Below are positions 11,593 through 41,108 of a DNA stretch of 44,008 nucleotides, piece after piece. Source of the stretch: Ruminococcus sp. (GTDB lineage Bacteria > Bacillota > Clostridia > Oscillospirales > Ruminococcaceae); contig JAFWSI010000006.1 in NCBI GenBank assembly GCA_017519415.1, forward strand, positions 1 through 44,008, given 5' to 3'. Position 1 is the first letter of the stretch; each line of letters starts with the position of its first letter. The notes beneath the pieces were generated by a model. The model searched no databases and was not told the DNA's origin. It saw only the letters and a list, made by a program, of their open reading frames with translations. The position numbers and the translations under genes were made by a program.

Positions 11593-11607
11593 TTGCTACA
11601 CTCCTTT

Positions 11608-11623: not shown

Positions 11624-11692
11624 TATTTGCAGGTACGCTTTCCGGGTGCCCGCTGCTTATTATAACCTTGCAGGGAACACCGCCCCGACTTA

Positions 11693-12571: not shown

Positions 12572-12583
12572 AGCCCCGCCTCC

Positions 12584-13510: not shown

Positions 13511-13563
13511 TTTCACTCACTCCTTTCGCAAATTATAATTTTGCTATACAAAAATATGATCCG

Positions 13564-13673
13564 GTTGAGAGTTTAGAGCTGACAGTTGAGGCGTCGCCTG
13601 CGGCGACAATTTTTAAATAATGTGAGTGAAGCGAACACATTAACTCTCAACTCTCTGCTTTCAACTTTCAGCT
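13564..13673. repeat. MITE/REP-like intergenic inverted-repeat element
   Basis: The gap between the binding protein and permease genes is almost filled by nested symmetry: GTTGAGAGTT (13564-13573) with AACTCTCAAC (13642-13651); AGCTGACAGTTGA (13577-13589) with TCAACTTTCAGCT (13661-13673, one mismatch); GTCGCC-TGC-GGCGAC (13593-13607); and AATGTG/CACATT (13619-13641). No coding sense is seen. It resembles the small dispersed intergenic repeats of gut clostridia. Other copies cannot be seen in this window. Confidence 0.6.
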
Positions 13674-16597
13674 TATTCAAGTCCGAGATTCTTACGCTTT
13701 CGCGTTATTTCGTCATTTATGTCCTTATTGTACCATATGAGCGTATCGCGGGGATTGCTGTGCTGGTTTATGGTCTCTCTGAACGCGTTCATTATATTCC
13801 TCGTCAGCGCATACGAAGCGGGAGTAACGGGTATCTCTGTGAGCTCCTCCTGCTGTGCTCTGAGTCTTGACAGCTCGTCCTCCGACCATGACAGCTGACC
13901 GAGAGCCTCCGTATTTGCGGTATCGAATCTTCCCATAGTACCGAGAAGTCCCTCTATCTGCGCCGCGTACTGCACCTGCGTATCCGTCTCCGTGAACCAC
14001 TTTATGAAGCGCCATGCATTCTCCTTGTTCTTCACCTTATTGAAGATAACGGCACCCGCGCCGTTGGAGTTTGCCGCATGGGAAACAGTACCGTCCTCCC
14101 TCTCCGTGCCCGGCACCGGACATATATCCCACAGTCCCTTTATCTCGGGAGAGGCTGCCGTCAGCTGATTGAAGAAGGTATAGTTTGCTATTACCATGGG
14201 GTATTCTCCCGTCCTGAAACGGCTGAACGCGTCGTAGGTCTGCTCAAAGCTGTATTTGGTATAGAAATCCGTCCACTCCTCGAAGGACTGTACCGCCTCA
14301 ACGGAATCAAAGGTTGAAGCCGTCATGTCACTGTTGTAGTAATTCATACCCTTCTGAAGCAGCTTGAGCGCAAAGGTATGACCTGTCTCCGTAGCGGGAG
14401 ATATATCATTCGGCGGCAGTACAAGTCCCACCGACATATAATTCCTTTGCATAGCGGGCAGCATATCCGTAAGGTCCTTCCATGTCTCGGGAGGCGAGGA
14501 AAAGCCCAGCTCCATAAGTATATCCGTGCGATAGAACAGCATGGGAAAGCTCTGACTTATGGGAATTCCGTAGCAGCCGCCGTTATAGCTGTACTGCGTC
14601 ATGGCGTTCTCCTGAAATCTTCCCCTTACCTCATCAAAGTCCCCGAACTGCGATATATCCGCAAGAAGTCCTCGGGCGGCAAGATTAACGGGGAATTCTC
14701 CCCCCAGGAAAAGCGCCACATCGGGGCCCTTTCCCGCAAGAGTAGCCTCCACGACTCCGCCGACAACGAGATTAACGGATACAGGTATGCCTGTTTCCTG
14801 CATGAACCTGTTCTCGGTCATCTCCTTGACCACCTGAGCCTGATCCCTTCCGAGAGCGACCCATACTTCTATTGCATCCTCACCGGTAACGTCCGAAAGA
14901 GTGGTGTAGTCCTCAAAAAACGAGCCTATAAAGGCGTCAAAGCCGAATTTCAGCGACTTCAGCAGCTTCTCGTCACAGCTTGCGAACTCCCTGCCGGCAG
15001 ACGCGAACTCGATATAGTCCACCTCGAGGGGCTGGTCGCGGTTGTCCCTTATCCATGCCGACAGAGAAGCGATACTGTCCTTTATCTGCGAAAGGTATGA
15101 GGGTATCTTCAGGGGCTTTGCGGTACACTTGTCAAGTATCACCGCCATATTCTCTATAGCCGCCGCTTCGGTGCCCTTGCTGCCCGAAAGCTTCTCGATG
15201 CCGAGCTGTATATCCTTCAGCTCCGCCGAGAGCTCTCCCAGCCTGTCTGTGAGCCCCGGTATCTTCTCATGGACGTAATAATCCGTATATTTGTCGGGAA
15301 CGGGTCCCGTTATCATAAGTATCCTGCGGTAATACACGTTCAGGTCTGCCACAACGCTGCCGAGCTGGCGGAGGTATGCGCCTATCTCTCCGGGAACAGC
15401 CTCCATGGTGAAGGTGTGATCCCTTCCGCCCTCCAGCCATACGTATACGCTTTCATCGCCGCTTTCCGGGCATACCACAGACCAGTCCGTACCATAAGGG
15501 AACTTAACGCCGTCAAGCTCCCTGCACGGCACCTTACCGTCGATATATATGCGCCTTACGGAATAAAAGCCGCGTATCTGATCCTGTCTGGCCTTTATCC
15601 CTATCCTGTACCAGCCGCCTGCGCCGACGTTCTCTGCGGGTATCTCCCATGTGACGGACTGGAGCGCCTTTTTCCAGTTTCCGCTGCCTATGGTATTGTA
15701 TACCATTTTGTTTGGGTCCGCAGGTGAGGCAAGGTAGCTGCTGTTGTCGTATGTAGGGTAGAGCGTCGGATCCGACTTATAGGCCGCATTTTCGCCCTCT
15801 ATCCTGAACAGACCGGGCTCCGTATCCTCAACTCTTATATCCGCCTCCGCCCTATCCGCATATTCCCTGTAGGAGGGCAGCTCCTCGCAGCCGCGGAACC
15901 GCAGCTCCGCAACGGCAAGCTGCGCTCTCTCTGAGCTGAAGCTGATCTTATGCCTGCCCTTTTCAAGATGAAAGAAAAGGGGCTGGCTGAACAGTCCGTC
16001 CGAATCGCCGAAGAAGCAGCTTTTCCACATCTGCTTCTGCACCTGTGGGGGACGCACCTGATTTCCGCGCATATCGGTATATATATCTCTTTCGTTCACC
16101 CACACCCTGCCGAGAGTGATACGGAAAGCGGTATCGTAGGGCAGTCTGCCGTCTATTTCCATGCTCAGCTCTATATCGGAGCTTCCCGAGAGCATGGGAC
16201 AGTATTCTATCTCAGCGCAGTAATTCCCTGTCTCGGGAACATCTATCTCGCAGCTTATCTCCCCCTCGGAGCTTTTCCACAGGAGGACGCCGCTGCGCTC
16301 CTCACCGAGATCGTCGGTAAAGCTGCCCGAGGAAAAATCACCGCCTGCACTGTGAGCGAAGTCTGTGCCCTTTATGGTTATCTCCTCCGAAGCGTAGCCC
16401 CCGGAGCCGTACTTGTCGCAGTAATCGCCGAAGCTCATGAGCTCCGGGTCGGCAGGCTCTATGGGATAATATTCCTCAGCGGCAGCCGCAAAGGCGACCG
16501 TACCCCCGGAAAGAACCCCGGAAGCTCCCGCAGGCAGCTGTGCAGCCATGAAAAATGACAGCATCCCTGCCGTCAGAGCTCTGAAAAATCTTCTCAT
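13673..16597 (-). CDS. Oversized extracellular solute-binding protein with jelly-roll-like domains
   Basis: The 974-residue protein has a signal peptide ending near AFA-AAA (about 37), with no lipobox cysteine. Residues 70-235 and 265-400 look like carbohydrate-binding jelly rolls (GNYCAEIEYCPM, GRHKISFSS; GGWYRIGIKARQ, RIYIDGK). Residues 435-565 are mostly helical, and residues 575-974 form a family-1 solute-binding domain (IEVWVALGRDQ, GKGPDVALFLGG, GIPISQSFPMLFYRTD, PETWKDL, AWRFIKWFTE). Usual sugar-binding proteins are ~430 residues, so more than half is extra. The start at 16597 was chosen for its signal peptide and the GGAAAGGCGG site; the longer frame above has neither. It is the first gene of locus A and should feed the permeases. 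How it is held at the surface is not evident. Confidence 0.88.
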   Translation of the reverse strand: MRRFFRALTAGMLSFFMAAQLPAGASGVLSGGTVAFAAAAEEYYPIEPADPELMSFGDYCDKYGSGGYASEEITIKGTDFAHSAGGDFSSGSFTDDLGEERSGVLLWKSSEGEISCEIDVPETGNYCAEIEYCPMLSGSSDIELSMEIDGRLPYDTAFRITLGRVWVNERDIYTDMRGNQVRPPQVQKQMWKSCFFGDSDGLFSQPLFFHLEKGRHKISFSSERAQLAVAELRFRGCEELPSYREYADRAEADIRVEDTEPGLFRIEGENAAYKSDPTLYPTYDNSSYLASPADPNKMVYNTIGSGNWKKALQSVTWEIPAENVGAGGWYRIGIKARQDQIRGFYSVRRIYIDGKVPCRELDGVKFPYGTDWSVVCPESGDESVYVWLEGGRDHTFTMEAVPGEIGAYLRQLGSVVADLNVYYRRILMITGPVPDKYTDYYVHEKIPGLTDRLGELSAELKDIQLGIEKLSGSKGTEAAAIENMAVILDKCTAKPLKIPSYLSQIKDSIASLSAWIRDNRDQPLEVDYIEFASAGREFASCDEKLLKSLKFGFDAFIGSFFEDYTTLSDVTGEDAIEVWVALGRDQAQVVKEMTENRFMQETGIPVSVNLVVGGVVEATLAGKGPDVALFLGGEFPVNLAARGLLADISQFGDFDEVRGRFQENAMTQYSYNGGCYGIPISQSFPMLFYRTDILMELGFSSPPETWKDLTDMLPAMQRNYMSVGLVLPPNDISPATETGHTFALKLLQKGMNYYNSDMTASTFDSVEAVQSFEEWTDFYTKYSFEQTYDAFSRFRTGEYPMVIANYTFFNQLTAASPEIKGLWDICPVPGTEREDGTVSHAANSNGAGAVIFNKVKNKENAWRFIKWFTETDTQVQYAAQIEGLLGTMGRFDTANTEALGQLSWSEDELSRLRAQQEELTEIPVTPASYALTRNIMNAFRETINQHSNPRDTLIWYNKDINDEITRKRKNLGLE

Positions 16598-16730
16598 ACC
16601 GCCTTCACCGCCTTTCCGCGGAACAGTCCCCGCTGCTGCTCCCACAAATAAAAATGCGCACGCTCCCCTGCGTCGGGAATTATGCGCACGGACAGCCTGC
16701 CGACAGTCCCGCTGACTGTCCTTATCCTTC
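16598..16730 (-). promoter_or_regulatory. Locus A leader with attenuator-like hairpins
   Basis: The ~130-base leader carries, on the minus strand, a first hairpin GACAGTC-GACTGTC (16702-16720) and then a larger one whose arms are TGCGCA at 16683-16688 and 16655-16660 with an inner TCCC/GGGA stem. The second is followed directly by ATTTTTATTT (16645-16654). That is the form of an intrinsic terminator placed before the first gene, so transcription attenuation is possible. I recognise no known riboswitch or T-box. Confidence 0.5.
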
Positions 16731-16736
16731 AAAGTC

Positions 16737-16765
16737 AGTATATCAAATTTATTGACCGATGTCAA
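16737..16765 (-). promoter_or_regulatory. Sigma-A promoter of locus A
   Basis: On the minus strand a perfect TTGACA (16760-16765), a 17-base spacer and TATACT (16737-16742) give a start near 16730. The region 16770-16970 between this and the divergent exporter promoter is AT-rich and holds no gene that I can support. Confidence 0.85.
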
Positions 16766-23148: not shown

Positions 23149-25764
23149 TCAGCTCTGCTCGCTTACGAGAAGAGAGATGCGGTTCTGAAGGAGATCGACT
23201 ATCTCGTCGCAGGACTTTTCGCCCTTGAGGAAAGCCATTACCTCTTCATTGAATATCTCGGATACCTCGGGATCGAAATCGCCGTAGCACCTGTCTATGC
23301 TCTTGATATAATCTACTATGTAATCCTTTTCTTCCTTGGTAAGGGGGTCTATCTTGATATTATCGCCGTTCATGCCGTAATAATAGAGATCCTCTTCTCT
23401 TTCGTTGCCCTCCTCGTCCTTGTAAACGGGCTTCTTCATACTTGCCTCTGCCTGCGCGTCGAACTTGGATACCAGTGAGGAAAGACCGCCCATGCCGTAT
23501 TTGCTGTTCTCTTCATCGTCGGTACCGGTGAACATCTCCTTGATGAAGTTCCAGCAGGCGTCCTTGTCGGAAGCATTTGAAAGGATAGCGTAGTTCTCGC
23601 TGAAGTTGAGGAGGCCTCCGTTGCCCTCTCCGTCCATGGGATAGCCGACGAGGGTAACAGGCTCGTTGAAGGCGCCCTTGATCTGTCTTGTGTACTCTTG
23701 GAAATCATAGATGTACATATCCGATGTAAGCACCTTATCCTTCCAGATATTGTCGTCTGAATACATCTCGTTTACAGCCTTGCTGTCCTCCCAGTCTATC
23801 TCGTCCTCTGACGAGGGGAACCTATTGCAGAATTCAAGGAGGCTCCTGAACTCGGGAGTATCGAAATTGCAGGTACCCTTTTCGTAATCGATAGCGCTGG
23901 AAATATAATACATTATCATTCCGAGGATATTTTCCTTGTAGTTATATACGGAAAATCTCATGCCGTCGGGCATATCGTCGTATGCCTTGATCATCTCGTC
24001 TATGGTCCAGCCCTGATCCTTTATGAACTTGGACTTGGCTGCGATAGTTGATACAGTGAATGAAGGAGCGATCGATGTGAGCTGTCCCTTCGTCTCGCAG
24101 GCCTTGAGAACATTAGGCATGATATCATCCCTGCTGAGGTCGGGATCCTTGTCGAGGAACTGGTAAAGGTCAGCGAAAAGTCCCTTGTTCTGGAGACTCT
24201 TTACCATTCCGTTGCTGTAGGTAACGATCATATCGGGAGCCTTGCCCGAAACTATATCCTTCTTGAGCTGCTGCTCTGCGGAATTATTGTACTTTTCAGT
24301 CTTCTCATCATAATCGTCGTAGATGCTGTAATCCACCATCTTGTAGCGGACATCGGTATTCTTCCTGTTGAGGACGGATATCCTCTGCTTTACGGACCAG
24401 TTGTCGTAGAGCACACCTATAGTCACGACCTTGAGGTTCTCAAGCTCCGAGGCGTCTCTCTTGCTGAGCCTGTAGAGCTGACAGCTGCCCTCTCCGTCAT
24501 ACGAATAATATGCCACGATGAAATCGCCGTTTTCGAGGGAAACAACTCCGCTGGCATTGCCGTTGCCCATATCGGAGTCCATCCAGTTGATGATCTCCTC
24601 TGCTGTGCCGTCCTCCTTGAGACCGTAGAAGCCCTTCTCGTTGGTGAATGAGAATTTATAGTCTCCGGAGCCCTCGTATATCTGGTTTATGTCATTGTTG
24701 CCCATGTTGGTTATCTTGATAACATCGCCCTTTATGGTCATATTGTCGGGGTCGATGTATGCGATAGCCGAATCATTGTTGAAATAGCCCGAAGCAACGC
24801 ATTCGTTATCGCCGATACATGAGAAGCTGCTGATATAGGTATCATCTCCGAGATCCAGCTCGGGACCGAAGGAACCGTCCTCGTTAAGCAGAGTATAGCT
24901 TGTGGGACCGTCGTTGTATATGGAGATGACAGTCTTTCCGCCGCCTATGGGAGAAATATTGCCTATGCTCACGCCGTATTCGCTGTCGCTGTCAAGCTCG
25001 TTGAGCTCCTTTATATCATTCTCGGAAAGCTTCTTGCCGTCAAGATCGAAGGTAACGAGCTTGTAGGTGCGGGTGGTAGCTTTCTCGAGAGCATCGTAGT
25101 CATAGTTCTGATAATCGAAGTTCTCGTCCCCGTAATCGGGAGGTGTCATGCCGTCGTACTCTGTGACAGTGGCAACAGCCATGATCTTCTCATCGGGAGA
25201 AAGCGCAAACTGATACCTTACGTCCCTGGCGTGGACATTGTCGTCCTTTCCTTCGTCCTTTTTCTCACCTGACTTCTCCTCATCACTGGTCTCATCGGAC
25301 TTCTCATTGTCCTTTTCCTCATCGGACTTCTCCTCATCCTTGGCCTCATCGGACTTCTCATTGTCCTTTTCCTCTGCGCCGGCCTCTTCATCGTCTTCCT
25401 TCACAGGCAGCGGTTCCTTCTTTCCGCTCATGCCCTCCTGAGAGCCTTTCTCAACCTCGGGAACTATCTCCTGAAAATCCACGAACTCGCTGTCGCCGAT
25501 GTAGAATACGGTGCTGTTCTTCCTTTCATTGAAGCCGCTGATGAAATATCTTCCGTCGCTGAGGCTCTCAAGATCATTGATATAAGTCAGATCTATATCC
25601 GTCTCAAGCTCCGTTGCCTTATAGGCGGCTGCCATGAGCTCCTGAGCTGTCTTTGACTTCTCATCGCCCTTGCCGCTCTTGCTGCTGCATGATACTGCCG
25701 AACCCGCCACCACAGTCAGCGCTGCGGTGCAGGCAAGAAATCTCTTTTGAATTGTCTTTTCCAT
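23149..25764 (-). CDS. Lipoprotein joining propeller-like region, acidic linker and solute-binding domain
   Basis: The 871-residue protein starts with a lipoprotein signal peptide whose lipobox is SAVSC with Cys26. Residues about 55-100 and 177-440 form repeated beta segments like a propeller (LESLSDGRYFISGF, FALSPDEKIMAVATV, VSLENGDFIVAYYSYD). Residues 104-176 are a highly acidic, repetitive Glu/Asp/Lys/Ser linker inserted early in it. From 444 on there is a solute-binding domain (VVTIGVLYDNW, APDMIVTYSNG, LFADLYQFLDKDPD, ACWNFIKEMFTG). Sugar-binding lipoproteins are usually half this size. It is the last gene of locus B, far from its permeases, with adaptor-type genes between. AGAGGT precedes the ATG. 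Confidence 0.88.
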   Translation of the reverse strand: MEKTIQKRFLACTAALTVVAGSAVSCSSKSGKGDEKSKTAQELMAAAYKATELETDIDLTYINDLESLSDGRYFISGFNERKNSTVFYIGDSEFVDFQEIVPEVEKGSQEGMSGKKEPLPVKEDDEEAGAEEKDNEKSDEAKDEEKSDEEKDNEKSDETSDEEKSGEKKDEGKDDNVHARDVRYQFALSPDEKIMAVATVTEYDGMTPPDYGDENFDYQNYDYDALEKATTRTYKLVTFDLDGKKLSENDIKELNELDSDSEYGVSIGNISPIGGGKTVISIYNDGPTSYTLLNEDGSFGPELDLGDDTYISSFSCIGDNECVASGYFNNDSAIAYIDPDNMTIKGDVIKITNMGNNDINQIYEGSGDYKFSFTNEKGFYGLKEDGTAEEIINWMDSDMGNGNASGVVSLENGDFIVAYYSYDGEGSCQLYRLSKRDASELENLKVVTIGVLYDNWSVKQRISVLNRKNTDVRYKMVDYSIYDDYDEKTEKYNNSAEQQLKKDIVSGKAPDMIVTYSNGMVKSLQNKGLFADLYQFLDKDPDLSRDDIMPNVLKACETKGQLTSIAPSFTVSTIAAKSKFIKDQGWTIDEMIKAYDDMPDGMRFSVYNYKENILGMIMYYISSAIDYEKGTCNFDTPEFRSLLEFCNRFPSSEDEIDWEDSKAVNEMYSDDNIWKDKVLTSDMYIYDFQEYTRQIKGAFNEPVTLVGYPMDGEGNGGLLNFSENYAILSNASDKDACWNFIKEMFTGTDDEENSKYGMGGLSSLVSKFDAQAEASMKKPVYKDEEGNEREEDLYYYGMNGDNIKIDPLTKEEKDYIVDYIKSIDRCYGDFDPEVSEIFNEEVMAFLKGEKSCDEIVDLLQNRISLLVSEQS
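25240..25400. repeat. In-gene tandem repeat encoding the acidic linker
   Basis: Units such as TCATCGGACTTCTC and CATTGTCCTTTTCCTC recur several times with 30-60 base periods, giving EKSDE/DNEKSDE repeats in the protein. The repeat stays in frame and could vary in copy number between strains by slippage. It is coding, not CRISPR. Confidence 0.7.
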
Positions 25765-25836
25765 TACGATACCTCTTTTTATTATTTAACTTTCTTTTGT
25801 TTTTCCCGTATCAAAGGGTGCTGTCCTTTTTCTCTT

Positions 25837-26979
25837 TTATTTCTTTTTCTGCGGGAGCCTGCTCCTCAGCGACTTCCATTTCGCCGAAACAGCCTTCCCC
25901 GCTGCTTTTTTAATGGCTGTTTTTCTCCGCCTCAGCCATATGTACCCCTTTACGGCGAGCCATATCAGGGTTATAAGCGGTATAGCAAGAAGGATACGTC
26001 TTCCTCCATAAATATATGAAAGCTTGAGATCCACTATCCTGGAAGCGTTCTCCCAGAACGGATAGATTATGGTGTCATCCCTGACAACAAGATCGCCAAG
26101 CTGCTTCAGAGCCTTTACGCGGACCTTCGGGTCCGAGCGCTCCGAATTCTTTACTATAGTGAATTTGTCCTTGTAGGGCTCGCTGAACTGCTTCTTCATC
26201 ATGTCGTAGCCGAAGTTCTCAACGGGCTCCGGAAGCACGCATTCATAGCAGGTTATACGGTCGAAGCTCTCTTCAAAGCCCATACCGGAGAAGTCCTCCC
26301 CGTAGCCGTACATGGCGCCCGGGGAGTCTCCGGAGACCGAACCTGCCGCATAGTAGGATATATATGCCAGAGGAGCCGAGCCTATGCATCTCTCCTCGGG
26401 ATCTGTGGAAGGAGTCTTTACAACTCCCGAAATATAGAATTTAACGCCGTTTATGTAAATGGCCTGCCCCGATATATTGGGAGAGCCGTAGAGCGCCCAC
26501 GCCAGTCTTTCGTCTATGACGGCGCCGTCCTGCATGATGTCGTCCTCGGTGAAGTAGGCTCCGTCAAGAAGGCGGAAATTCCTGAAAAAGAAGAACTCTC
26601 CGCCCACAGCCGTTATCTGCGCATCGGCGCTGCCGCCAATATCACAGCTCACCGAAGCCTTTCCCACGGGAGTGCTGTAAGCGTCCGGAAAAAGGAGCTT
26701 TCCCTTTTCCTCGGTTATGGAGGCCTCCTGAAGGTTTGAACGGAAGCTGCTCCTTATACTGTTCATCTCGTTTATGTTAAAGCCTGCGTCGTTACTGAGA
26801 AAGCAGCTCAGCTGGGAATAATCCATATCGCCGCTGTGCTTCCAGCGCTCCGCAGCGAAGTTATAGCCCTGTGACCTTGCGGTAATGCTGCCCGCCAGAG
26901 TAAGGACGGCAGCTCCCGCGATCGCAGCCGCATTCACCGCAGCCGTGACTATATGCCTGAGTTTGAATTTCCATCGCAT
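25837..26979 (-). CDS. Stand-alone MacB-type extracytoplasmic domain protein with two membrane helices
   Basis: The 380-residue protein has one N-terminal helix (about 10-32, VTAAVNAAAIAGAAVLTLAG), an extracytoplasmic domain of ~290 residues and one C-terminal helix (ILLAIPLITLIWLAVKGYIW) with a very basic tail. The middle resembles the MacB periplasmic core domain: AVGGEFFFFRNFRLLDGAYF, GAVIDERLAWALYG and YINGVKFYISGVVK match the usual 'pLl.Gr.f...d', 'v.ViGe..A..lFG' and 'v.I.g..f.VvGv' blocks. A true MacB/FtsX permease would have four helices and an ATPase partner; both are missing. The ATG at 26979 is preferred for AAGGTGGTGG just upstream. It follows the HlyD-like gene directly, suggesting that the two products interact. 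Confidence 0.75.
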   Translation of the reverse strand: MRWKFKLRHIVTAAVNAAAIAGAAVLTLAGSITARSQGYNFAAERWKHSGDMDYSQLSCFLSNDAGFNINEMNSIRSSFRSNLQEASITEEKGKLLFPDAYSTPVGKASVSCDIGGSADAQITAVGGEFFFFRNFRLLDGAYFTEDDIMQDGAVIDERLAWALYGSPNISGQAIYINGVKFYISGVVKTPSTDPEERCIGSAPLAYISYYAAGSVSGDSPGAMYGYGEDFSGMGFEESFDRITCYECVLPEPVENFGYDMMKKQFSEPYKDKFTIVKNSERSDPKVRVKALKQLGDLVVRDDTIIYPFWENASRIVDLKLSYIYGGRRILLAIPLITLIWLAVKGYIWLRRRKTAIKKAAGKAVSAKWKSLRSRLPQKKK

Positions 26980-26992
26980 AAGGTCCACCACC

Positions 26993-28723
26993 TTATTTAT
27001 CCTTGATGCGGACCTGATCTCCTGCTGTGATCGGCTTGCTTGAAGCTGTGATTATATAATCTCCTCTGTTGACGCCTCCCGATACTGCGGTAGACACCTC
27101 GTCGGAAGCCTCCTCGTTGACGGACACGCGCTCAACGTAATAGCGGTTGCCGAGAGGAGTGCTCTTGGAGCGTACAGTAAGCACGTACTTTCCGTCGTTG
27201 TCCTGCTTGACGGCACTCTTGGGAACTATGGTATCATAGCTGCCGCTGCCGCAGGGTATGGAAATATCCAGTGACTCGCCCGAATCCACATCTCCCGAGA
27301 TGTCGAATACGAGTATCTTGTTCTTTCCGCCCGATGTGGTATCGTTCTTTATCTCGCTGAGGACAGCGGTTATGTCGCCCTTCCAGTTATTCATTACCTC
27401 GGCTTCTATGCCCTTCTTCAGCTTCTTCACCTTGCTGTTCTCAACTGTGAACTGTAATGTGAAGCCCGAATCCACAAGGTCTATGGTAGCCAGTGATGAG
27501 CCGGGAGTCGTTGTCTCGTTGGGGGAAACATTTATCGAGCTTATAACGCCGTCGTACTTGGACTTTATATCGGAATCGGCGGATTCCTTCTTCATCTTGT
27601 CCACCTTTTCCTGCTGCTTGTCTATGGCCTTCTTCTTGGACTCAAGTGTAAGAGCTTCCCTGCGGTTTGATATGGAATCCGTCTGCTTGGTCTTGTTGAG
27701 GGAGATAATAAGAGTCTCCAGAGCATTCTGCTTGTCCTCAACGTCCTGAGCCAGCGACTCGTAGGTATTTCCCGCGCTCTCGCCGAATTCGTTGTTGAAA
27801 TCGTTTATGGCGTTTTCCAGCCTGTCAAGGGTGCTTTCCGTATCGGCAAGCTTTGCCACAAGGTCAGCGCGTATAGAGCTCTTTGCGTTGTTGTAGGCGT
27901 CCCTTGCAGCGTCTCTTGCAGACTTCTTCGCGTCCGCGTCGCTCTTGGCAAGCTCTGCGTTCTCGCCCTTTTCAATGGCGATCTGGAACATACTGTAGGC
28001 TTCGCTGTATTCGTCCTCAGCCGCCATGGCCGCGCTGTTGAGAGCGGCAAGGTCTCCGCTGTATTCGGGAGCCGCAGCCACGTATGAATCCATATCTATA
28101 GCCGAGATAGTGTCCTCTATCTTTGACTTCACGTTAGTTAGCCTGCTGAACTCCGCCTTGTTTGCCTTATAGGTATCCTTTGCGGCATTGGCTCTGCTGT
28201 CGTTGCCGCTTGCGGCGTCGCGCTTGGCGATAGCCTCGTTCAGAGCCGCACGGGCTGCTCTTATCTGCTGATCCTCCGAGGAGTAATCGGTAGGCTCCTT
28301 GAGGAGAGCGCTCTCGTAATCCAGCTTGAGGTTTTCCAGAGCCTCCTCTGCCTCTGCGAGCTTATCGTCGTCAACGGTATTCACGGTAAAGAGCACGTCG
28401 CCCTTCCTGACCTCCTGACCCATCTTGACATGGATCCTCTCGATGACGAAATTATTGTCAACGGTAACGTTGTAGGCCTGATTGGACTCCACAACGCCCT
28501 TTCCTCTGATGCGCTCCGTGAGTTTTCCCGAGGTAGCCGATTCCGTTGAGATCTCCGGCAGCGACTTGTTCATTATCGTGTTCGAGAAGAACGTCAGCAC
28601 CAGCATAGCTGCGAGGAATATTATTATAACAGTCTTTATTATGTCCTTTTTTCTGGCAGCGGGATTCCTGTACTTTTCATCCTCTGCCAGAAGGCGTTCC
28701 CTGACTTCGTTTGTATCGTTCAT
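26993..28723 (-). CDS. HlyD/MacA-like membrane fusion (adaptor) protein
   Basis: The 576-residue protein has a short cytoplasmic tail, a membrane helix (about 28-46), a first half-lipoyl segment (VERIHVKMGQEVRKGDVLFT in register near 90-112), a long Ala/Lys/Glu-rich coiled coil (about 115-385), the second half-lipoyl segment (YDGVISSINVSPNETTTPGS near 390), and a beta-barrel region to the end. This is the order of adaptor proteins that pair with exporters. Its coiled coil of ~270 residues is long. AAGGAG stands eight bases before the ATG. In Gram-positives such adaptors usually serve MacB-like exporters; here the neighbours are sugar-import permeases and a permease-less MacB domain, which is unusual. 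Confidence 0.88.
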   Translation of the reverse strand: MNDTNEVRERLLAEDEKYRNPAARKKDIIKTVIIIFLAAMLVLTFFSNTIMNKSLPEISTESATSGKLTERIRGKGVVESNQAYNVTVDNNFVIERIHVKMGQEVRKGDVLFTVNTVDDDKLAEAEEALENLKLDYESALLKEPTDYSSEDQQIRAARAALNEAIAKRDAASGNDSRANAAKDTYKANKAEFSRLTNVKSKIEDTISAIDMDSYVAAAPEYSGDLAALNSAAMAAEDEYSEAYSMFQIAIEKGENAELAKSDADAKKSARDAARDAYNNAKSSIRADLVAKLADTESTLDRLENAINDFNNEFGESAGNTYESLAQDVEDKQNALETLIISLNKTKQTDSISNRREALTLESKKKAIDKQQEKVDKMKKESADSDIKSKYDGVISSINVSPNETTTPGSSLATIDLVDSGFTLQFTVENSKVKKLKKGIEAEVMNNWKGDITAVLSEIKNDTTSGGKNKILVFDISGDVDSGESLDISIPCGSGSYDTIVPKSAVKQDNDGKYVLTVRSKSTPLGNRYYVERVSVNEEASDEVSTAVSGGVNRGDYIITASSKPITAGDQVRIKDK

Positions 28724-28790
28724 ATCTTTACTCCTTCTGAGCGGATAACCATTTTAATTCTGTCTCCGTATTTTGTTATCATTTGCAGGC

Positions 28791-29681
28791 TTACCCCTTT
28801 ATTCCGCCGGAATAAGCTATTCCCTCTATCAGATCCTCCTCGCCGTAGAGGAACATCAGCACCGTGGGTATCATGTACACCGTTCCCACGGCAAAGGCAA
28901 GTCCTATATCTCCCGTATTTATCTGCGAAAGGAAGACCGAAAGCGGGTGGAGCGAGGTCTCCTTCATAAGCACCAGGGGCTGTTCCACCATGTTCCAGTA
29001 ATCGATGAATACCAGCATGGCTATCGAAACGATAGCGCCCTTGCACAGTGGGATATATATCTTTGTGAGCACCCTGAATTCTCCTGCGCCGTCCAGCTTC
29101 GCCGCCTCCACATAGGAAACGGGAATCCTCTTCATTACCTTTGTCAGCAGGAATATGCTGAAGGGAGAGAATATGGCCGGCAGTATGATGGCGCTTCTCT
29201 TGTCGAGGAGCCCGAACTTGTCTGCCACAAGGAAATTCGGTACCAGAGTTACCTGATAGGGCATTATCATAAGGATTATGTAAGCGAAAAAGATTATCCC
29301 CTTGAATTTATTCGGGTATCTTGCAAAGCCGTAGGAGGTAAGTATCGCCACAGCCATCTGGAATACCGTTATGGGCACCGTCAGCAGCACCGAGTTCCAG
29401 AATTTCATTAGATAATCTGAATTCTGTATAAGGACCGCCTTATACTGAGCAAAGGTGACCTTGTCGGGAATGAATTTGAGATTTACGTTCTCCGATATAA
29501 ATACCTTCTTGGCCTCGGTCATGTTCGAGAACATGGCGCCGTAGTTGGCGGAGATCTCTCCCGAGGTCATGAACGAATTCGCTAAGGTGAGCACCGTGGG
29601 GAACAGGAAAAGCACCGCCGCCAGAGCTATAAAGACGAATACAAGGCTGTCCGCTATCTTACGCCGTCTTCTTATGTTCAT
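28791..29681 (-). CDS. Carbohydrate ABC transporter permease, MalG type (locus B)
   Basis: A CUT1 permease of 296 residues with six predicted helices. The docking loop reads SYVEAAKLDGAGEFRVLTKI followed by YIPLCKGA. The large extracytoplasmic loop after helix 1 is longer than usual (TSGEISANYGAMFSNMTEAK and onward). The ATG overlaps the stop of the MalF-type gene as TGATG. The next gene, for the HlyD-like adaptor, starts 67 bases later with its own strong ribosome binding site and no terminator between, so one transcript is likely. Confidence 0.9.
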   Translation of the reverse strand: MNIRRRRKIADSLVFVFIALAAVLFLFPTVLTLANSFMTSGEISANYGAMFSNMTEAKKVFISENVNLKFIPDKVTFAQYKAVLIQNSDYLMKFWNSVLLTVPITVFQMAVAILTSYGFARYPNKFKGIIFFAYIILMIMPYQVTLVPNFLVADKFGLLDKRSAIILPAIFSPFSIFLLTKVMKRIPVSYVEAAKLDGAGEFRVLTKIYIPLCKGAIVSIAMLVFIDYWNMVEQPLVLMKETSLHPLSVFLSQINTGDIGLAFAVGTVYMIPTVLMFLYGEEDLIEGIAYSGGIKG

Positions 29682-30568
29682 CAGTTCTCCACATCCTTTC
29701 CGAAGATGTTCTCCGCGATGAGGAGAAGAGCCATGATGACTATCATGACGAGAGCGAACAGTACCGCCGCAGCCGAAAGCTTCTGATAATCGAGGCTGTT
29801 GAAGGTATTGTTCATGAAGTGCTGGAGCATATAGAGCTTATCCTGCGGATAATTGCCCGTAAGAAGATATACCTCCCTGAATATCTTGAAGGAATTGATG
29901 AGAGAGAGTATCAGCACGAAGAGTATCGTAGGTGAAAGATACCTCAGCTTTATATGCAGGAACTTGTAAAGGCTGCCTGCGCCCTCAAGATCAGCCACCT
30001 CTATGATGTCGCGGGGGATCGCGCACAGTGCCGACATGAAGAGTATCATGTTATAGCCGAGATTCTTCCACAGGAACATACATATTATAATGACCTGTCC
30101 GTAGGGGGACTTTATCCAGTCCACCGTCTGACCGCCGAAGCGCTCGATTATCTGGTTTATGGTGCCGTGATTGTGAAACAGCACCTGCCACACAAGAACT
30201 ACCGAAGCCGTGGGGACCATGAGCGGACTGAGGAAGAAGGTCCTGAAAATGCTTTTTCCGGGTATGTTCCTTTCCAGCAGCATAGCCAGTCCGAGAGAGA
30301 GGATCACCGACAGCGGCACGGATACAAGTGAAAAGAAGGCGGTGTTCTTTACCGCCTTCGTAAACGCCGAATTGCTGAAGAGCTTCGTATAGTTGTCAAG
30401 CATTACGAACTCTTTCATAACAGGGTTGTTGATAAGCGAGTAATATATTACGATACAGAACGGTATAAGGAAGAAAACGAGCACGCCGACGAGACTCGGC
30501 AGGATACAGACGTTGCTGAATATCCGTTCCCCGCGCCTTCCGCACTGGTTCCTGATCTTGTTTTTCAT
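29681..30568 (-). CDS. Sugar ABC transporter permease, MalF type (locus B)
   Basis: This 295-residue permease has six predicted helices and begins with the MalF-like FSNVCILPSLVGVLVFFLIP. The docking loop is IIEVADLEGAGSLYKFLHIK; the proline that usually follows the loop is replaced (KLRYLSPT), a small departure. It is the first gene of locus B, about 275 bases after the predicted transcription start. The ribosome binding site GTGAGGTTG is only moderate. It forms the channel with the MalG-type product of the next gene; no ATPase is encoded. Confidence 0.9.
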   Translation of the reverse strand: MKNKIRNQCGRRGERIFSNVCILPSLVGVLVFFLIPFCIVIYYSLINNPVMKEFVMLDNYTKLFSNSAFTKAVKNTAFFSLVSVPLSVILSLGLAMLLERNIPGKSIFRTFFLSPLMVPTASVVLVWQVLFHNHGTINQIIERFGGQTVDWIKSPYGQVIIICMFLWKNLGYNMILFMSALCAIPRDIIEVADLEGAGSLYKFLHIKLRYLSPTILFVLILSLINSFKIFREVYLLTGNYPQDKLYMLQHFMNNTFNSLDYQKLSAAAVLFALVMIVIMALLLIAENIFGKDVEN

Positions 30569-33624: not shown

Positions 33625-33630
33625 AAAGTA

Positions 33631-33766
33631 CCATAAAGAGTACGTGAGGGACAAGCCCGTTGACCGTACAGCAACCTGCGAAGACGTAAGGTGCTAAAGC
33701 TTGAACGATGGGATGATAATGATGCTTATACAGCGATCCTGTCGTTACGATGGGATCGCTTTTTTG
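33631..33766 (+). ncRNA. S-box (SAM-I)-like riboswitch with terminator switch
   Basis: The conserved S-box core is present in order: AAGAG, P2 arm GTACG (33641-33645), GAGGGAC (33647-33653), GCCCG (33656-33660), TTGAC, P2 arm CGTAC (33666-33670), GCAACC (33672-33677), and AAGGTGCTAA (33689-33698) closing P3. P1 is weak (CCAT with ATGG) and the usual P4 is not evident, so it is a variant. Then comes an expression platform: AGCGATCC (33733-33740) pairs with GGATCGCT (33754-33761) before T6, a terminator; alternatively ATCC and TCGTT (33737-33747) pair with AACGA and GGAT of 33705-33715, an antiterminator. Ligand binding should turn the gene off. Confidence 0.75.
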
Positions 33767-34402: not shown

Positions 34403-36526
34403 ATGGCAAATATTAATGCTGTTATTGAAGAAGTCGAGAAGCTGAATCCTGAGCTTGCTAGAGAGATAAAAAAATATGTCAAGAGCCATTCATACGGCCT
34501 TGTATATGAGAACAACCTTCCTGACGCTGTCAGATTATATAAGAAGACCGTAGCTGTTGGAGATTCAGTTAATATTCTTCCTGAGCGCGGACAGGAGGAG
34601 TCTGACGCTAATAAAGCCGTATGGACTGTAAAATCAATAGACAACGGAAAAGCCACACTTGTTAACGGTCTCGAAACTTGTGAAGTTGCTGTGGAGGACG
34701 TAGTCGTTATCGTTGGATATAAGGATGTAATATATCCTGGCCTTAAAGAGATTGACCGTATAGAACGCGGTAATCCAGAAGATCCATATCACATGGTCAT
34801 CAACTCAGAAAACTATCATGCACTTGAAGCCCTTACATATGCTTATGCCGGAAAAGTAGATTGCATATATATCGATCCGCCTTATAATAAAAAGGATACT
34901 AAGGATTGGAAATACAACTGCGACTATGTTGATGGTAATGATCAGTACAAGCATAGCAAGTGGCTTACTTTTATGGAGCGACGCTTGAAGTTAGCTAAAC
35001 AACTATTGAATCCCAAAGATTCTGTTTTGATAGTAACCATTGATGAAATAGAATACGCACGATTAGGACTATTACTTGAACAAATATTTCCCGAAGCAAC
35101 AATTCAAATGATTAGTTCAGTAATTAGTTCAAAAGGCGTTGTAAGAAATGGTCAATTTTCAAGAGTTGAAGAATACATTTATATCCTTCAATTCGGAGAG
35201 TGTTGCGTAAAAAAGCAGCTTATCAATATGCTTGATAATGAAATAAAAAAGGATGCAGATAGGGATATAGAATGGTTAGGATTTAGAAGAAGAGCCCCAC
35301 AAGCCAAAAGATTATCACGTCCAAACCAGTTTTACCCCATATATGTTGATAATGATAAAGGTGTTATTGTTGAAATTGGTGATGTAGTTAAACCAGGCGT
35401 GGATAGAGAAACAGTATACGTCCCCGATAATTGCACAGCTTTATGGCCGCTAAGTAAAGGCGGTGATGAGAGATTGTGGAGTTTAATTCCAGAACAAGCA
35501 CGAATAAATTGGAAAAAGGGATATCTAAGAGTCAATAATTGGAATAAATCTCAAAAAACAGGTACGGTTTATTATTTGGCGTCAGGTACAATAGAAGATA
35601 TTGAAAGTGGTGTTGCAACAACATTAGGTCGTAATACTGATGATTCAATTATTGCCAAATATATAAGTGAAGGAACTACACCGCCTAAAAAAGTATGGAA
35701 CCTTAAAACACATAATGCAGAAACTTATGGTACAAACATTCTTAAAGAAATGATAGGTAACAGATTTAATTATCCTAAATCGATTTATGCTATTCATGAT
35801 GTTTTAAAATTCTATGTTGATGATAAACCCAAGGCTCTAATCATCGATTTTTTCTCTGGATCAGGTACCACTCTTCACGCAGTCAATCTTTTGAATGAAT
35901 TAGATAACGGTAAGCGAAGATGTATTTGTGTTACAAACAATGAGGTTTCTGAAGATGAAGAAACGGAGTTTAAAGCTAAAGGACTTCGTCCTTACGATGA
36001 AGAATGGGATAAGTATGGAATTGCCCGTTATGTAACATGGCCACGTACTATATGTAGTATTGAAGGCCATGATATTAATGGAAATCCTTTAGCTGGAGAT
36101 TATGGCAAACCTTCAGAAAAAATCGATTTAGGGTATTCATTACCAAAGGCAAACGGTTTTAAAGCTAATGCCATTTTCTGTGAATTAACGTATGAATCAG
36201 CTTGGCCCATAAGACTTGACAACGCATTTGATGCAATAGCACCTATTCTCTGGATGCTCGCTGGATGCAGAGGGCCTATTATTCGTAAACTGGGTAAAAG
36301 CTATTTGACTACAGATTACTACGGCGTATTATTTGATTATAGCCAGGCTTCAAAGTTCTGTGAGAAAGTCAAGAGTACGCCAACAATAAAAACCGCATTC
36401 GTTGTTACTGACGATCAAAGAAGATATTCAAATATGTGTAAACGCTTACCAGGCGTTGATGTACACAGACTTTATGAATCATTCCTTAGAACATTCGAAA
36501 TATGCGGTGAGGGGGGACTTGATTAA
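34403..36526 (+). CDS. Type III restriction-modification methyltransferase (Mod)
   Basis: The 707-residue protein is a beta-class adenine-N6 methyltransferase. The catalytic motif IV DPPY is at 158-161 within VDCIYIDPPYNKKDTKDW, and the SAM-binding motif I, FSGSGTT, follows far downstream at about 483-489 within IIDFFSGSGTTLHAVN. This order (IV before I) defines the beta class used by type III Mod subunits. The region between, about 200-440, should hold the target recognition domain. Residues 1-110 are an extra N-terminal part. Its stop overlaps the Res start (TAATG), so the subunits are made together. Sequence specificity cannot be read. Confidence 0.92.
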   Translation: MANINAVIEEVEKLNPELAREIKKYVKSHSYGLVYENNLPDAVRLYKKTVAVGDSVNILPERGQEESDANKAVWTVKSIDNGKATLVNGLETCEVAVEDVVVIVGYKDVIYPGLKEIDRIERGNPEDPYHMVINSENYHALEALTYAYAGKVDCIYIDPPYNKKDTKDWKYNCDYVDGNDQYKHSKWLTFMERRLKLAKQLLNPKDSVLIVTIDEIEYARLGLLLEQIFPEATIQMISSVISSKGVVRNGQFSRVEEYIYILQFGECCVKKQLINMLDNEIKKDADRDIEWLGFRRRAPQAKRLSRPNQFYPIYVDNDKGVIVEIGDVVKPGVDRETVYVPDNCTALWPLSKGGDERLWSLIPEQARINWKKGYLRVNNWNKSQKTGTVYYLASGTIEDIESGVATTLGRNTDDSIIAKYISEGTTPPKKVWNLKTHNAETYGTNILKEMIGNRFNYPKSIYAIHDVLKFYVDDKPKALIIDFFSGSGTTLHAVNLLNELDNGKRRCICVTNNEVSEDEETEFKAKGLRPYDEEWDKYGIARYVTWPRTICSIEGHDINGNPLAGDYGKPSEKIDLGYSLPKANGFKANAIFCELTYESAWPIRLDNAFDAIAPILWMLAGCRGPIIRKLGKSYLTTDYYGVLFDYSQASKFCEKVKSTPTIKTAFVVTDDQRRYSNMCKRLPGVDVHRLYESFLRTFEICGEGGLD

Positions 36527-39219
36527 TGAAATTCGGATTAAAGGATTTTCAAAGAGATGCTGTTCATTCGCTTTTAAAGAAAATCGATGAAATGCAGGAT
36601 ACATACGAAAAACACGGTTCACTTTCTGCTGTACCTCTTACCTCGCCAACTGGCTCAGGTAAAACAGTTATTGCCGCTGCAGTTGTTGAAGGTCTATTTT
36701 TCGGAAATGATATTTATGCAGGAGATCCCAAAGCCACTATACTATGGCTTTCAGATAGTCCCTCTTTAAATGAGCAAACACTAAAAAGATTTGATGAAGC
36801 AACAGATCTTTTGAAGGCTGCTACATTAATGGAAACAATCGGGCCAGAATTTGCAAAGAGCCATTCTCAGCTAAAAAAGGGACATATTTATTTTCTGAAC
36901 AGGCAACTATTGAGCGAGGGAAAGACTTTAGTAAATAACGCTGAAGGTGGACGTACATTTTTCGATGTGATTTCAAACACTATTAATGATAGCGATATCC
37001 ACCTATTCACATTTATTGACGAAGCGCACCGTGGACTTGGATCAGGAAGCAATAAAGCAACATCATATAATGCAAACAAAACCATCTATGCAAAACTGAT
37101 TGACGGGCAAGAAGGAATAAACCCGCCTCTCCCAGTCGTTATTGGTGTTTCTGCTACACCCGAGCGATTTAATAATGCAATGCAAGGGCGAAAGAATCGT
37201 GATATTAAGTCTGGAGTAACTGTTAAAATATCGGAAGTAAAAAAATCCGGACTTATAAAGGATTCTATAGAACTGCGCACACCTAAGCAAGCAACGGATA
37301 CAAAGCATCAAGATTTAACACAAGCATGTTCAAAACTTGCTAATTACTCAAAACTGTGGACACAGTATTATCTTGACAATAAACAGAAAGGCGATTGCAG
37401 ATTAATCGTTCCGTTAATGGTCGTTCAGGTTGAGGATAAAGTATCTAATGATACATTAGGCGCTTTATGTAGTCAAATCTGTAAAACACTTCCTTGGCTT
37501 GATAAGAACGAATGCTTTGCCAATGTATTTGGTGAGCACGAAGATATTAAAACATCATCTGGAATTATCCGTTATATCAAACCTGAAAACGTTTCAGAGC
37601 ATGAAGAAGTAAAGATATTATTTGCAAAGGATGCTGTTTCAACGGGATGGGATTGTCCAAGAGCTGAAGTTATTTATTCAAGACGCAAAAGAACTGATCC
37701 AACTTATATTGCTCAGTTGATAGGTCGTATGGTAAGAACTCCTCTTGCACGACGTATTACTAACGTAGAAGCGCTAAATACAGTATCGTGTTATCTTCCT
37801 GAATATGATGCTTCTACAGTTGAATCTGTTGTAGCAAAGCTAAAAGAAGATCATATTGATGAAACATCAGATATTTCAGTTAATACGGTAGATGTCGGAT
37901 TCTATGGTGATACAAAGAAGGTAATCGAAGCTGAAATTGCAAAACATGAAAAAACAACTTCGGTTGACATGGATAACCAAAAGGTTATCGCTTCAGCTAC
38001 TACAGATAGCAACGATGTTGATACACCGGACAATAGTCAAATTAATATTTCTGATGACGTGAATAATCAATTCTATGTGTCTGATACACCAGAAACAGAT
38101 TACACTGTCATTACAGAAGAACCACAAAAGTCAAAAGAGGAACTAAAAGAGGTGTTGGAACGAATTCCAGATGCTGATGCCGATGCGATTAAGGAATGCT
38201 TTGAAAGCATTGTCACAAGACAAATTCGTCATGATAAACCTAATCATTTCCTCGATTTATGGGATTGCGTAGATATTATTTCTTCAGATCTCATGCCAGA
38301 TTCTAATTTGAATTCAGAAATTGCAGAATCATTCTATAGGAATATTGAAGGAGCAATAGCAATATATCCTGCCGAGTATAAACGTGCATTAAGCCAAATT
38401 CAAAGTACGCAGATGGCCATTGTAAAAGTTGATCCTCTTACTGGAGACAAATACGAAGGCCGTGAAGAACTTGCAACAAATGACGCTGATAGATTAGTGT
38501 CTAACTATAATCATACCGTCAAAGTTTTTTCTGGTGCATCAGATGTTGTAAAATATTACATAAATAAGCGCAAATCTGAGGAAATGGAGTCCGATGAAGA
38601 AGCGATTAGAAGAGTTTGTGCTGTTGGTGAATGCATGGAAATAATACAAAGTATGGAGGAATGGGCTTCTAAAGAGACAGAAAAACTGCTTTCTAATTAT
38701 GGTTCATTCAGAGAGTCTGTCTCAGATGAAAACAGAGAAAAATGGGACAGGATTGAAGGTAATACTAAGCCATATATCGAAGATACATTGAATATTCGCT
38801 CCACAAATACACATCAGAATCAAGATTACGATAAATACCCTAAACATATAATAAGTGACAAAAACGGTTGGTCATATCATAAACTCAATCCTTTGGAGCA
38901 AGCCGTATTAAAGCACGAATTAGATCAACCATTAGTAGTTGCGTGGTATCGTAATCAACCGAAAAATCTTCGTGCTTCTTTGTCAATTCCATATCTTTAT
39001 AACGAACATCTAGAACCAAACTATCCTGACTTTATTTTCTTTCAAAAAGTTAAAGACAAGATAAAGCCAGCCATAGTTGACCCACATGGTGATTGGCTGG
39101 GCGATAGCATAGCTAAACTAAAAGGATATGTTATGTATTTAAAAGATCATCCTACTATGTTCTCCAGAGTATTAGCCGTTACTGATGGAAAAAAGGTGAG
39201 ATTAGATATCTTGATTTGA
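36526..39219 (+). CDS. Type III restriction enzyme helicase-nuclease subunit (Res), C-terminally frameshifted
   Basis: This 897-residue superfamily-2 helicase shows Walker A SPTGSGKT (about 39-46), DEAH in FIDEAHRGLG (about 163), SAT in GVSATPERF (about 208), and motif VI-like TYIAQLIGRMVRTPLARR. The C-terminal nuclease region has YPDFIFF and IVDPHGDWLGDSIAKLKGY, a PD-D/ExK-like arrangement in which Asp replaces the usual Glu. The frame stops at 39219, but the next frame continues at once with LDLMKKDVQDAIEAFTGDTA up to a TGA at 39309. A five-base insertion near 39199-39210 explains this. The catalytic core precedes the shift, so activity may survive. It is coupled to Mod. Confidence 0.9.
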   Translation: MKFGLKDFQRDAVHSLLKKIDEMQDTYEKHGSLSAVPLTSPTGSGKTVIAAAVVEGLFFGNDIYAGDPKATILWLSDSPSLNEQTLKRFDEATDLLKAATLMETIGPEFAKSHSQLKKGHIYFLNRQLLSEGKTLVNNAEGGRTFFDVISNTINDSDIHLFTFIDEAHRGLGSGSNKATSYNANKTIYAKLIDGQEGINPPLPVVIGVSATPERFNNAMQGRKNRDIKSGVTVKISEVKKSGLIKDSIELRTPKQATDTKHQDLTQACSKLANYSKLWTQYYLDNKQKGDCRLIVPLMVVQVEDKVSNDTLGALCSQICKTLPWLDKNECFANVFGEHEDIKTSSGIIRYIKPENVSEHEEVKILFAKDAVSTGWDCPRAEVIYSRRKRTDPTYIAQLIGRMVRTPLARRITNVEALNTVSCYLPEYDASTVESVVAKLKEDHIDETSDISVNTVDVGFYGDTKKVIEAEIAKHEKTTSVDMDNQKVIASATTDSNDVDTPDNSQINISDDVNNQFYVSDTPETDYTVITEEPQKSKEELKEVLERIPDADADAIKECFESIVTRQIRHDKPNHFLDLWDCVDIISSDLMPDSNLNSEIAESFYRNIEGAIAIYPAEYKRALSQIQSTQMAIVKVDPLTGDKYEGREELATNDADRLVSNYNHTVKVFSGASDVVKYYINKRKSEEMESDEEAIRRVCAVGECMEIIQSMEEWASKETEKLLSNYGSFRESVSDENREKWDRIEGNTKPYIEDTLNIRSTNTHQNQDYDKYPKHIISDKNGWSYHKLNPLEQAVLKHELDQPLVVAWYRNQPKNLRASLSIPYLYNEHLEPNYPDFIFFQKVKDKIKPAIVDPHGDWLGDSIAKLKGYVMYLKDHPTMFSRVLAVTDGKKVRLDILI

Positions 39220-40478: not shown

Positions 40479-41108
40479 ATGAAAAAAACAAAAATCATCA
40501 GTGCACTTTTATCGTTAAACATTCTTGCAGCACCTTCAATCGGTATAATTTCAAATGTCACTTCAAAAACAAGCAGCAGCCGGCTGACAGCATATGCCTA
40601 CAGTGAAAATGTGACCGGAAATTGGATAAAGGACAGCCAGAACGGGAAATGGTGGTACAGGCATTCCGACGGCTCTTATACGAAAAACAGCTGGGAAAAG
40701 ATCGATAATGTATGGTACCATTTCGATGTAAGCGGCTGGATGCAGACCGGCTGGCTGGAGCTCAAAGGCAAAAAATACTACCTGAATTCCGACGGCTCAA
40801 TGCACACCGGTTGGAAAAAGATCGAGGATAAATGGTATTATTTCAATACAGACGGTTCTATGCATACCGGTTGGAAAAAATATCAGGATAAATGGTATTA
40901 TATGAACGAAGACGGCAGCATGCATATCGGTTGGCTCACTTTCAGAGGCGAATACTCTTTTCTCCCCATAAAATATTATTTTGACGAAAACGGTGCTATG
41001 TATACCGGTACGCTGTTACGCAACGGTAAAATGTACGAATTCAAAAATGACGGCACTTTATACTGCACCCGGATATACAAGAACGGTATATGGATCAGAA
41101 TAGACTGA
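40479..41108 (+). CDS. Secreted cell-wall/choline-binding-type repeat protein
   Basis: The 209-residue protein has a signal peptide (MKKTKIISALLSLNILAAP, cleavage near TAYA) and then about six repeats of ~20 residues rich in Trp, Gly and Tyr: WWYRHSDGSYTKNSWEKI, YYLNSDGSMHTGWKKI, WYYFNTDGSMHTGWKK, WYYMNEDGSMHIGW. This is the choline-binding/glucan-binding repeat type, which holds proteins on wall glycans or teichoic acids. There is no catalytic domain at all, so it is a binding module alone. In the centre the repeat DNA is strongly conserved (TGGAAAAA with AAATGGTATTA), implying recent duplication. Terminator follows. Confidence 0.88.
   Translation: MKKTKIISALLSLNILAAPSIGIISNVTSKTSSSRLTAYAYSENVTGNWIKDSQNGKWWYRHSDGSYTKNSWEKIDNVWYHFDVSGWMQTGWLELKGKKYYLNSDGSMHTGWKKIEDKWYYFNTDGSMHTGWKKYQDKWYYMNEDGSMHIGWLTFRGEYSFLPIKYYFDENGAMYTGTLLRNGKMYEFKNDGTLYCTRIYKNGIWIRID

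Follow-up and report, generated by a model that had tools for sequence, protein, structure and literature searches.

Why should the permeases of a sugar importer share an operon with an adaptor protein and an extracytoplasmic domain of exporter type? The question is raised by locus B, five genes at positions 23149–30568 on the minus strand of a 44,008-nucleotide stretch of DNA from a fibre degrader of the gut, Ruminococcus sp. (GenBank assembly GCA_017519415.1, contig JAFWSI010000006.1), the whole of which is referred to here as the window. Read from 30568 to 23149, the genes are MALF, MALG, HLYD, MACB and SBP. Their place and common direction, reported earlier by a sequence-only reading of this DNA, are borne out by the coordinates, the strand and the Pfam matches. 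We propose, at even chances, that locus B encodes one ATP-driven importer in which an adaptor tube is seated on a MacB-type domain. The linkage of MALF, MALG, HLYD and MACB is well supported, and the recurrence of so odd a gene set across families suggests that the uptake machine is of a type not yet described.

The first operon gene, MALF (29681–30568), encodes a MalF/UgpA-like permease of the CUT1 importer type, and MALG (28791–29681) encodes a MalG/UgpE-like one. Both products match the Pfam family BPD_transp_1 (58 and 42 bits, respectively; cutoff 26.4), so that the two permeases of a CUT1 importer are present. The best NCBIfam model for MALF is UgpA, at 104 bits, which is under the cutoff of that model. 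With 19 genus orthologues, MALF shares 72–91% and MALG 70–88% amino acid identity, and the mean column identities are 76% and 71%, respectively. MALG includes a conserved loop and a GGIKG tail; we take the conserved loops of both permeases to be of the EAA type, an importer motif. HLYD (26993–28723) encodes a MacA/HlyD-type membrane fusion (adaptor) protein, which matches HlyD_3 of Pfam at 34.3 bits (cutoff 22.2) and falls just short of the cutoff of the NCBIfam model RND_mfp (92.3 bits; cutoff 94.9), while its profile reaches MacA chains in the PDB (E value 9e-5). A hydropathy scan places one membrane helix at its N-terminus, and the two lipoyl halves are separated by some 273 residues, including two prolines.

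The product of MACB (25837–26979) contains the MacB periplasmic core domain, MacB_PCD (37.9 bits; cutoff 27), which was also detected at E values up to 0.01 in all 30 aligned genus members, the window included; in a comparison with solved structures, MacB chains match the MACB profile at no better an E value than 0.06. Two membrane segments were located by hydropathy scan at residues 13–38 and 327–353, numbered from the GTG at 26991. No FtsX domain was detected in the window MACB or the 30 aligned genus members, nor in any of nine module MACBs scanned singly, the window again included, one of which (L209) matched no Pfam family; the complete MacB of the same genome, used as a positive control, scores 83.8 bits for FtsX. 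Thus, the FtsX permease domain with helices 3 and 4 that typifies MacAB is absent from MACB, and no MacB-type ATPase was found among the operon genes. A full MacB with overlooked helices 3 and 4 was considered and ruled out by the two membrane segments and the lack of FtsX, and the two-helix protein with only the extracytoplasmic domain of MacB stands as first described. MacB itself is a dimer in which helices 1 and 2 form a stalk under the periplasmic domain and helices 3 and 4 lie outside (PMC5985334). Because MACB keeps only helix 1, the domain and helix 2, it is read here as a putative platform for the adaptor.

The last gene, SBP (23149–25764), encodes an 871-residue lipoprotein with a signal segment (hydropathy scan), a lipobox-like AVSC and, in its C-terminal half, a family-1 solute-binding domain. 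Taken alone, the window SBP scores 19 for SBP_bac_1 of Pfam, under the cutoff of 26; the domain was detected in all but one of 20 aligned SBPs, at E values up to 0.01, and the family profile matches the solved CbpC (7x0o) across the solute-binding domain (E value 2.3e-22). It is through this family profile that the solute-binding component of a CUT1 importer is recognized. The protein had been described as a propeller-plus-binding lipoprotein; the binding domain and the lipoprotein character hold, but the propeller was not confirmed by family search, which gave no match to a propeller family in any of the 20 aligned SBPs, including that of the window.

The gene set recurs throughout the genus. 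MACB was found in 31 of 35 same-genus relatives; in 20 neighbourhoods drawn from these 31, MALG, HLYD and MACB occur together in every case and SBP in 19, while MALF was called in 19 and was located in the twentieth by whole-genome search. Relatives in named genomes were represented by the best 80 of 205 loci, 74 of them labelled Ruminococcus and many R. flavefaciens, and share some genomes with the genus set. All five genes are in order in 68 of the 80, and MALG-HLYD-MACB is present in 79. This trio is kept in 11 of the 12 loci that are not complete in order; among the 12, one contig begins at MACB, and the rest are without SBP, run into a contig end, or carry SBP before MALF.

Outside the genus, profile matches at the thresholds used were obtained in 68 of 394 genomes of the order, 85 of 391 of the class and 22 of 398 of the phylum, counts that each include the window's own genome and in which many matches are ordinary MacB. 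We examined 71 places outside the genus (29 order, 32 class and 10 phylum matches), mostly the strongest matches, with some strong ones left out (e.g., G134, G199, G484 and G795) and a few weak ones taken as controls. Of the 71, 52 contain the whole of MALF-MALG-HLYD-MACB in that order. These 52 modules come from 15 labelled families, of which three lie outside the class of the window; identity of MACB to the window drops to 21% while the gene order persists. The other 19 places comprise a rearranged locus (L273), six cut by a contig end (L196, L203, L204, L206, L245 and L265), one of ambiguous content at a contig end (L297), and 11 without MALF and MALG. Nine of these 11 (L208, L268, L270–L272, L274, L299, L300 and L302) have an ATPase beside MACB that scores 127–141 bits on our own profile; as the genome's own MacB-type ATPase scores 119 bits on the same profile, all nine fall in the MacB range. 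The remaining two (L267 and L269) consist of adaptor and MACB only. That locus B is an annotation artefact or a set of neighbours without common function is extremely unlikely, since a chance neighbourhood is contradicted by the recurrence in the genus, in the named genomes and in 15 families, and since the nine loci with a MacB-range ATPase, like the genome's MacAB, have neither MALF nor MALG. Conservation of the neighbourhood, the check that the sequence-only reading called for, thus identifies the mixture as a recurrent unit.

On which of the two known systems is the unit built? The import permeases are kept in order, and 15 of the 52 modules have a same-strand gene for a UgpC/MalK-type ATPase no more than 3.5 kb away, after MACB in 14 and before MALF in one. 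Five of these ATPases passed the UgpC cutoff of NCBIfam (5/5), that of L298 was recognized by Pfam, with MalK OB and TOBE_2 domains over the cutoff, and the others by our own profile. Both features place the unit on an importer. In the window's genome, a free-standing UgpC-type ATPase (484.7 bits; cutoff 432) is encoded on contig C34, away from permease genes, and may serve locus B. The statement that neither ATPase is present is therefore true of the operon, but not of the genome. No MacB-range ATPase adjoins MACB on the same strand in any of the 52 modules, as judged by our own profile; L295 has an ATPase that scores in this range, at a distance of 3 kb. Given the UgpC/MalK-type genes beside 15 of 52 modules and the free-standing one in the genome, the ATPase missing from the operon is probably of the importer type. 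Sugar importers of Clostridium share one ATPase, the case in point being the cellodextrin importer of C. thermocellum (PMC9601137). Its absence is consequently ordinary for a sugar importer of the Bacillota that shares one; the oddity of locus B is the adaptor and MACB.

These data also bear on the possibility that two machines are encoded in one operon, i.e., an ordinary sugar importer and an adaptor-MACB pair serving another ATPase or permease. The parts do stem from two different known systems, adaptor and MACB occur without MALF or an adjacent ATPase at L267 and L269, and the genome possesses both a complete MacAB (L210, on C44) and a 924-residue protein (on C3) with a MacB_PCD match under the cutoff. 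Yet the MALF-MALG-HLYD-MACB order is kept in 15 families, MACB is without an FtsX domain, module MACBs are not adjoined by a MacB-range ATPase, and MALF and MACB are jointly absent from members of the genus. Both are missing from G013, G029 and G033 among the 35 relatives. Another genome, G011, has no MACB, and its MALF lies 2.1 kb from a contig end, so that MACB would lie past the contig; the fourth genome without MALF, G1184, was outside the MACB search. The MacAB of the genome comes with an adaptor and a MacB-type ATPase of its own, and with no MALF or MALG. Pairing of HLYD and MACB with this MacAB, which would have told against the original proposal, was accordingly rejected, the sole complete MacAB found having both parts itself, in an assembly that is about 75% complete and from which further MacAB systems may be missing. 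Distances among the four core proteins correlate (Mantel r 0.82–0.91 over 48 modules, reached in 0 of 2000 permutations), a correlation that common operon descent alone suffices to explain. On balance, we regard two independent machines as unlikely.

A single importer with dedicated outer parts, the reading that we prefer, could work as follows. MALF and MALG would form the membrane pore, powered by a shared ATPase of the MalK/UgpC type whose gene lies at another place in the genome, and SBP would deliver the substrate. HLYD and MACB would be dedicated outer subunits: MACB, with helix 1, core domain and helix 2, may be the docking platform, moved, if at all, via MALF and MALG, and HLYD may build up on it into an adaptor tube that surrounds or tops the MALF-MALG pore, in the way that MacA assembles on MacB. 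Between the membrane and the outer wall, substrate or SBP would be guided or retained by this tube. We infer the complex, its ring stoichiometry, the direction of transport, the conduit, the wall passage and the substrate alike. For the substrate, a plant-glycan oligomer is a guess from neighbouring genes in some relatives. In a distant family (f67), four of nine modules (L254, L255, L259 and L261) lie near GH9-CBM3, GH5 or GH94 genes, as found by scanning seven neighbour genes from six of the nine loci; these genes are of the cellulase (GH9-CBM3 and GH5) and cellobiose/cellodextrin phosphorylase (GH94) types and fit a link to cellulose, and no such gene was seen adjoining locus B. The phrase 'through the thick wall' and the 'polymer' of the sequence-only reading may likewise be suggested by the long adaptor stretch of about 273 residues, and the adaptors of ordinary MacAB-type loci can reach a similar length. 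Taken further, the module might represent a new class of ATP-binding cassette (ABC) importer, with a CUT1 pore capped by a MacA-type tube on a MacB-type mushroom that extends into the Gram-positive wall, or right through it, and takes up a substrate that is large or held at the surface, so that the three-part plan of efflux pumps would operate backwards; we put this forward tentatively, as possible rather than probable.

Comparison of the modules revealed two forms. In the first, a multi-helix MACB is combined with a short adaptor and a mostly single-size SBP; in the second, a two-helix stub is combined with a longer adaptor stretch and an SBP of about double size. By hydropathy count, the 52 modules have two MACB membrane segments in 42 cases, one in two, and at least three in eight. 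The seven modules with five or six segments have adaptors of 388–433 residues, in six of which 96–142 residues separate the lipoyl halves; this distance is 173–501 residues in 42 other adaptors, which include those of five genus members and of L253 (three MACB segments), and 273 in the window. The SBP beside a multi-helix MACB has 457–498 residues in six of nine loci, 730 in L263 and 703 in L266, and is cut in L264, and complete SBPs beside a stub MACB at loci beyond the genus have 688–864. When 398 genomes of the phylum were searched with a profile of the multi-helix MACB, 45 gave matches: G948, G998 and G1135 at no less than 596 bits, and the remaining 42, whose neighbourhoods were not included, at 74–93 bits, like ordinary MacB core domains. 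A helix rises 1.5 Å per residue and a hairpin consists of two antiparallel helices; by that rule, the 273-residue stretch of HLYD would span no more than about 200 Å, or less if it is shortened by sequence breaks. The MacA-like tube of the pneumococcus has a helical barrel of 56 Å and a modelled assembly height of 154 Å (PMC5768738).

Several observations weigh against an importer with a wall-spanning tube. The eight modules with at least three MACB segments, which belong to five families, show that the two-helix stub is not universal. Adaptor length proves little for a tube, because ordinary loci have long adaptors too, called at 434–906 residues in seven of 11, and in the genome's own ordinary MacA the lipoyl halves are 186 residues apart. 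The Gram-positive wall is porous, and small sugars should need no tube to pass it. Among the genomes from which MALF and MACB are both absent, only G013, at 98%, is near complete, G029 and G033 being 73% complete. At L267 and L269, an adaptor and a four-segment MACB-like gene are followed by a frame of some 760 residues, with no MALF, MALG or adjacent ATPase; adaptor-MACB pairs can therefore exist apart from the importer. SBP is the least constant part, as it is not beside MACB in L121, L154 and L168, and CbpC-like SBPs in G480 and G1191 also sit away from any HLYD or MACB. Finally, in C. thermocellum, a mutant of transporter C, to which CbpC belongs, grows normally on glucose, cellobiose and Avicel, and CbpC bound none of the sugars tested, its cleft being blocked by a loop (PMC9601137); an earlier study had reported binding, as cited in PMC9601137, PMC11212667 and PMC3492117. 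Because of the mutant, the lack of binding and the blocked cleft, the module may not import sugars, and by analogy its substrate may not be a sugar.

Arrangements around SBP vary in other ways. Large SBP genes of the CbpC-like kind, or pieces of such genes, lie at L333, L334 (contig C33 of G480), L335 and L336 with no permease, HLYD or MACB in the vicinity, two of these matches having stop codons. At L195, L244, L249 and L250, two or three SBP genes surround one permease set. At L035 and L154, which are on the same contig, MACB is followed not by an SBP but by two long frames of 614 and 630 residues, the first of which has 27% identity to an ABC ATPase of the window.

If the module does not import sugars, might it work outward or not transport at all? 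Were it an outward machine, the shared ATPase together with MALF and MALG would drive release or secretion of a lipoprotein, a glycan or a wall precursor via the HLYD tube, with SBP as substrate or chaperone. HlyD and MacB core domains are indeed known from exporters and envelope machines (PMC5985334), and the failure of CbpC to bind a tested sugar would agree with such a role. MALF and MALG, however, belong to an importer family and have its conserved loops, SBP is usually present, and the ATPase beside 15 of 52 modules is of the UgpC type, and an outward direction appears improbable to us. In the alternative without net flow, or with little, SBP and MALF-MALG would use ATP to move MACB and HLYD, which would act on the envelope, e.g., on wall enzymes, in the manner of FtsEX. 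Proteins of the MacB family do act outside the membrane by mechanotransmission (PMC5985334), and the blocked cleft of CbpC would suit a sensor (PMC9601137); the high conservation of two import permeases, in contrast, points to a transport path, and we consider mechanical control quite improbable.

Should HLYD and MACB work with MALF and MALG, the divide between importers and adaptor-based exporters would not be absolute. Many Bacillota would then own an uptake machine with outer parts for which our searches met no assay, and the way in which Gram-positive fibre degraders bring material from the surface of the wall to the membrane would become open to direct test. The proposal may also account for the failure of CbpC of C. 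thermocellum, a supposed cellodextrin binder, to bind anything tested in one study.

Is locus B transcribed as a unit, under one promoter and one terminator, as had been proposed? MALF and MALG overlap by 1 base, and the other gaps are of 67, 1 and 72 bases, the second becoming 13 from the preferred start of MACB. The open reading frame listed for MACB starts at GTG 26991; ATG 26979 is probably the true start, as it follows the end of an AAGGTGG by 8 bases and is the start used by most aligned orthologues. Two minus-strand signals flank the genes: a promoter-like site (30878–30850; TTGACA-17-TATTAT, 11/12), which stops 282 bases short of MALF, and, 3' of SBP, a terminator-like hairpin (23096–23070; 10-pair stem, 7 G-C, T-rich tail). 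Both are consensus matches only, of kinds found 21 and 14 times in the window versus 14.0 ± 3.6 and 8.3 ± 3.1 in shuffles, respectively. Weaker promoter-like sites occur on the minus strand within the operon (e.g., 28779 and 26459), and terminator-like sites within MALF (30359 and 30501). The signals at both ends thus agree with the proposal, but further such sites inside do not, and since all are consensus matches a single transcript is likely rather than proven. Three tRNA genes lie upstream of the operon on the opposite strand.

Elsewhere in the window, a large transport locus on the minus strand (4668–16765) contains a 1030-residue SBP protein, two import permease pairs, and NHL-repeat, Yip1 and DUF5696 proteins in the same direction, with no ATPase among the genes scanned. 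On the plus strand, a DNA methyltransferase beside a ResIII helicase/nuclease (34403–39219) is likely a type III restriction-modification system, with a SAM riboswitch (33628–33714) upstream of the pair, and a short protein with choline-binding-type wall repeats is encoded at 40479–41108.

How, then, does locus B compare with described systems? With CUT1 importers of the MalFG/UgpAE type that share an ATPase, such as transporter B of C. thermocellum (PMC9601137), it has in common two BPD_transp_1 permeases, a family-1 SBP, and an operon without an ATPase, a UgpC-type ATPase being encoded elsewhere in the genome. Unlike them, it adds a HlyD/MacA adaptor and a MacB core-domain subunit. The parts are known, and the combination is undescribed in the literature searched, as judged from the titles and opening abstract lines of the papers listed, in which we found no CUT1 importer with these two additions, nor do we know of one. 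Passages retrieved from PMC4300822 likewise hold nothing on this system. Transporter C of C. thermocellum resembles locus B in its SBP, through the relationship to CbpC given above. Its cbpC operon (Cthe_2125–2128, also numbered clo1313_2783-6) consists of four genes, including the two permeases msdC1 and msdC2 (PMC8303734; PMC11212667), and acrA is among the genes that a figure legend names for the sugar-transporter clusters of this species (PMC9601137). CbpC differs in having 438 residues and no counterpart of the long N-terminal half of SBP; a search with a CbpC fragment matched none of six genomes, and four of 22 in a second set, at no more than 30% identity. Finally, the Gram-positive MacAB pumps, exemplified by Spr0693-0695 of S. 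pneumoniae, in which a MacA-like nanotube docks onto a MacB-type transporter (PMC5768738) and Spr0693 stimulates the ATPase activity of its transporter, also have a MacA/HlyD-type adaptor gene beside a MacB-core gene. In contrast to these pumps, locus B is without an FtsX permease domain and a MacB-type ATPase; it has import permeases in their place, accompanied in relatives by an ATPase of the importer type.

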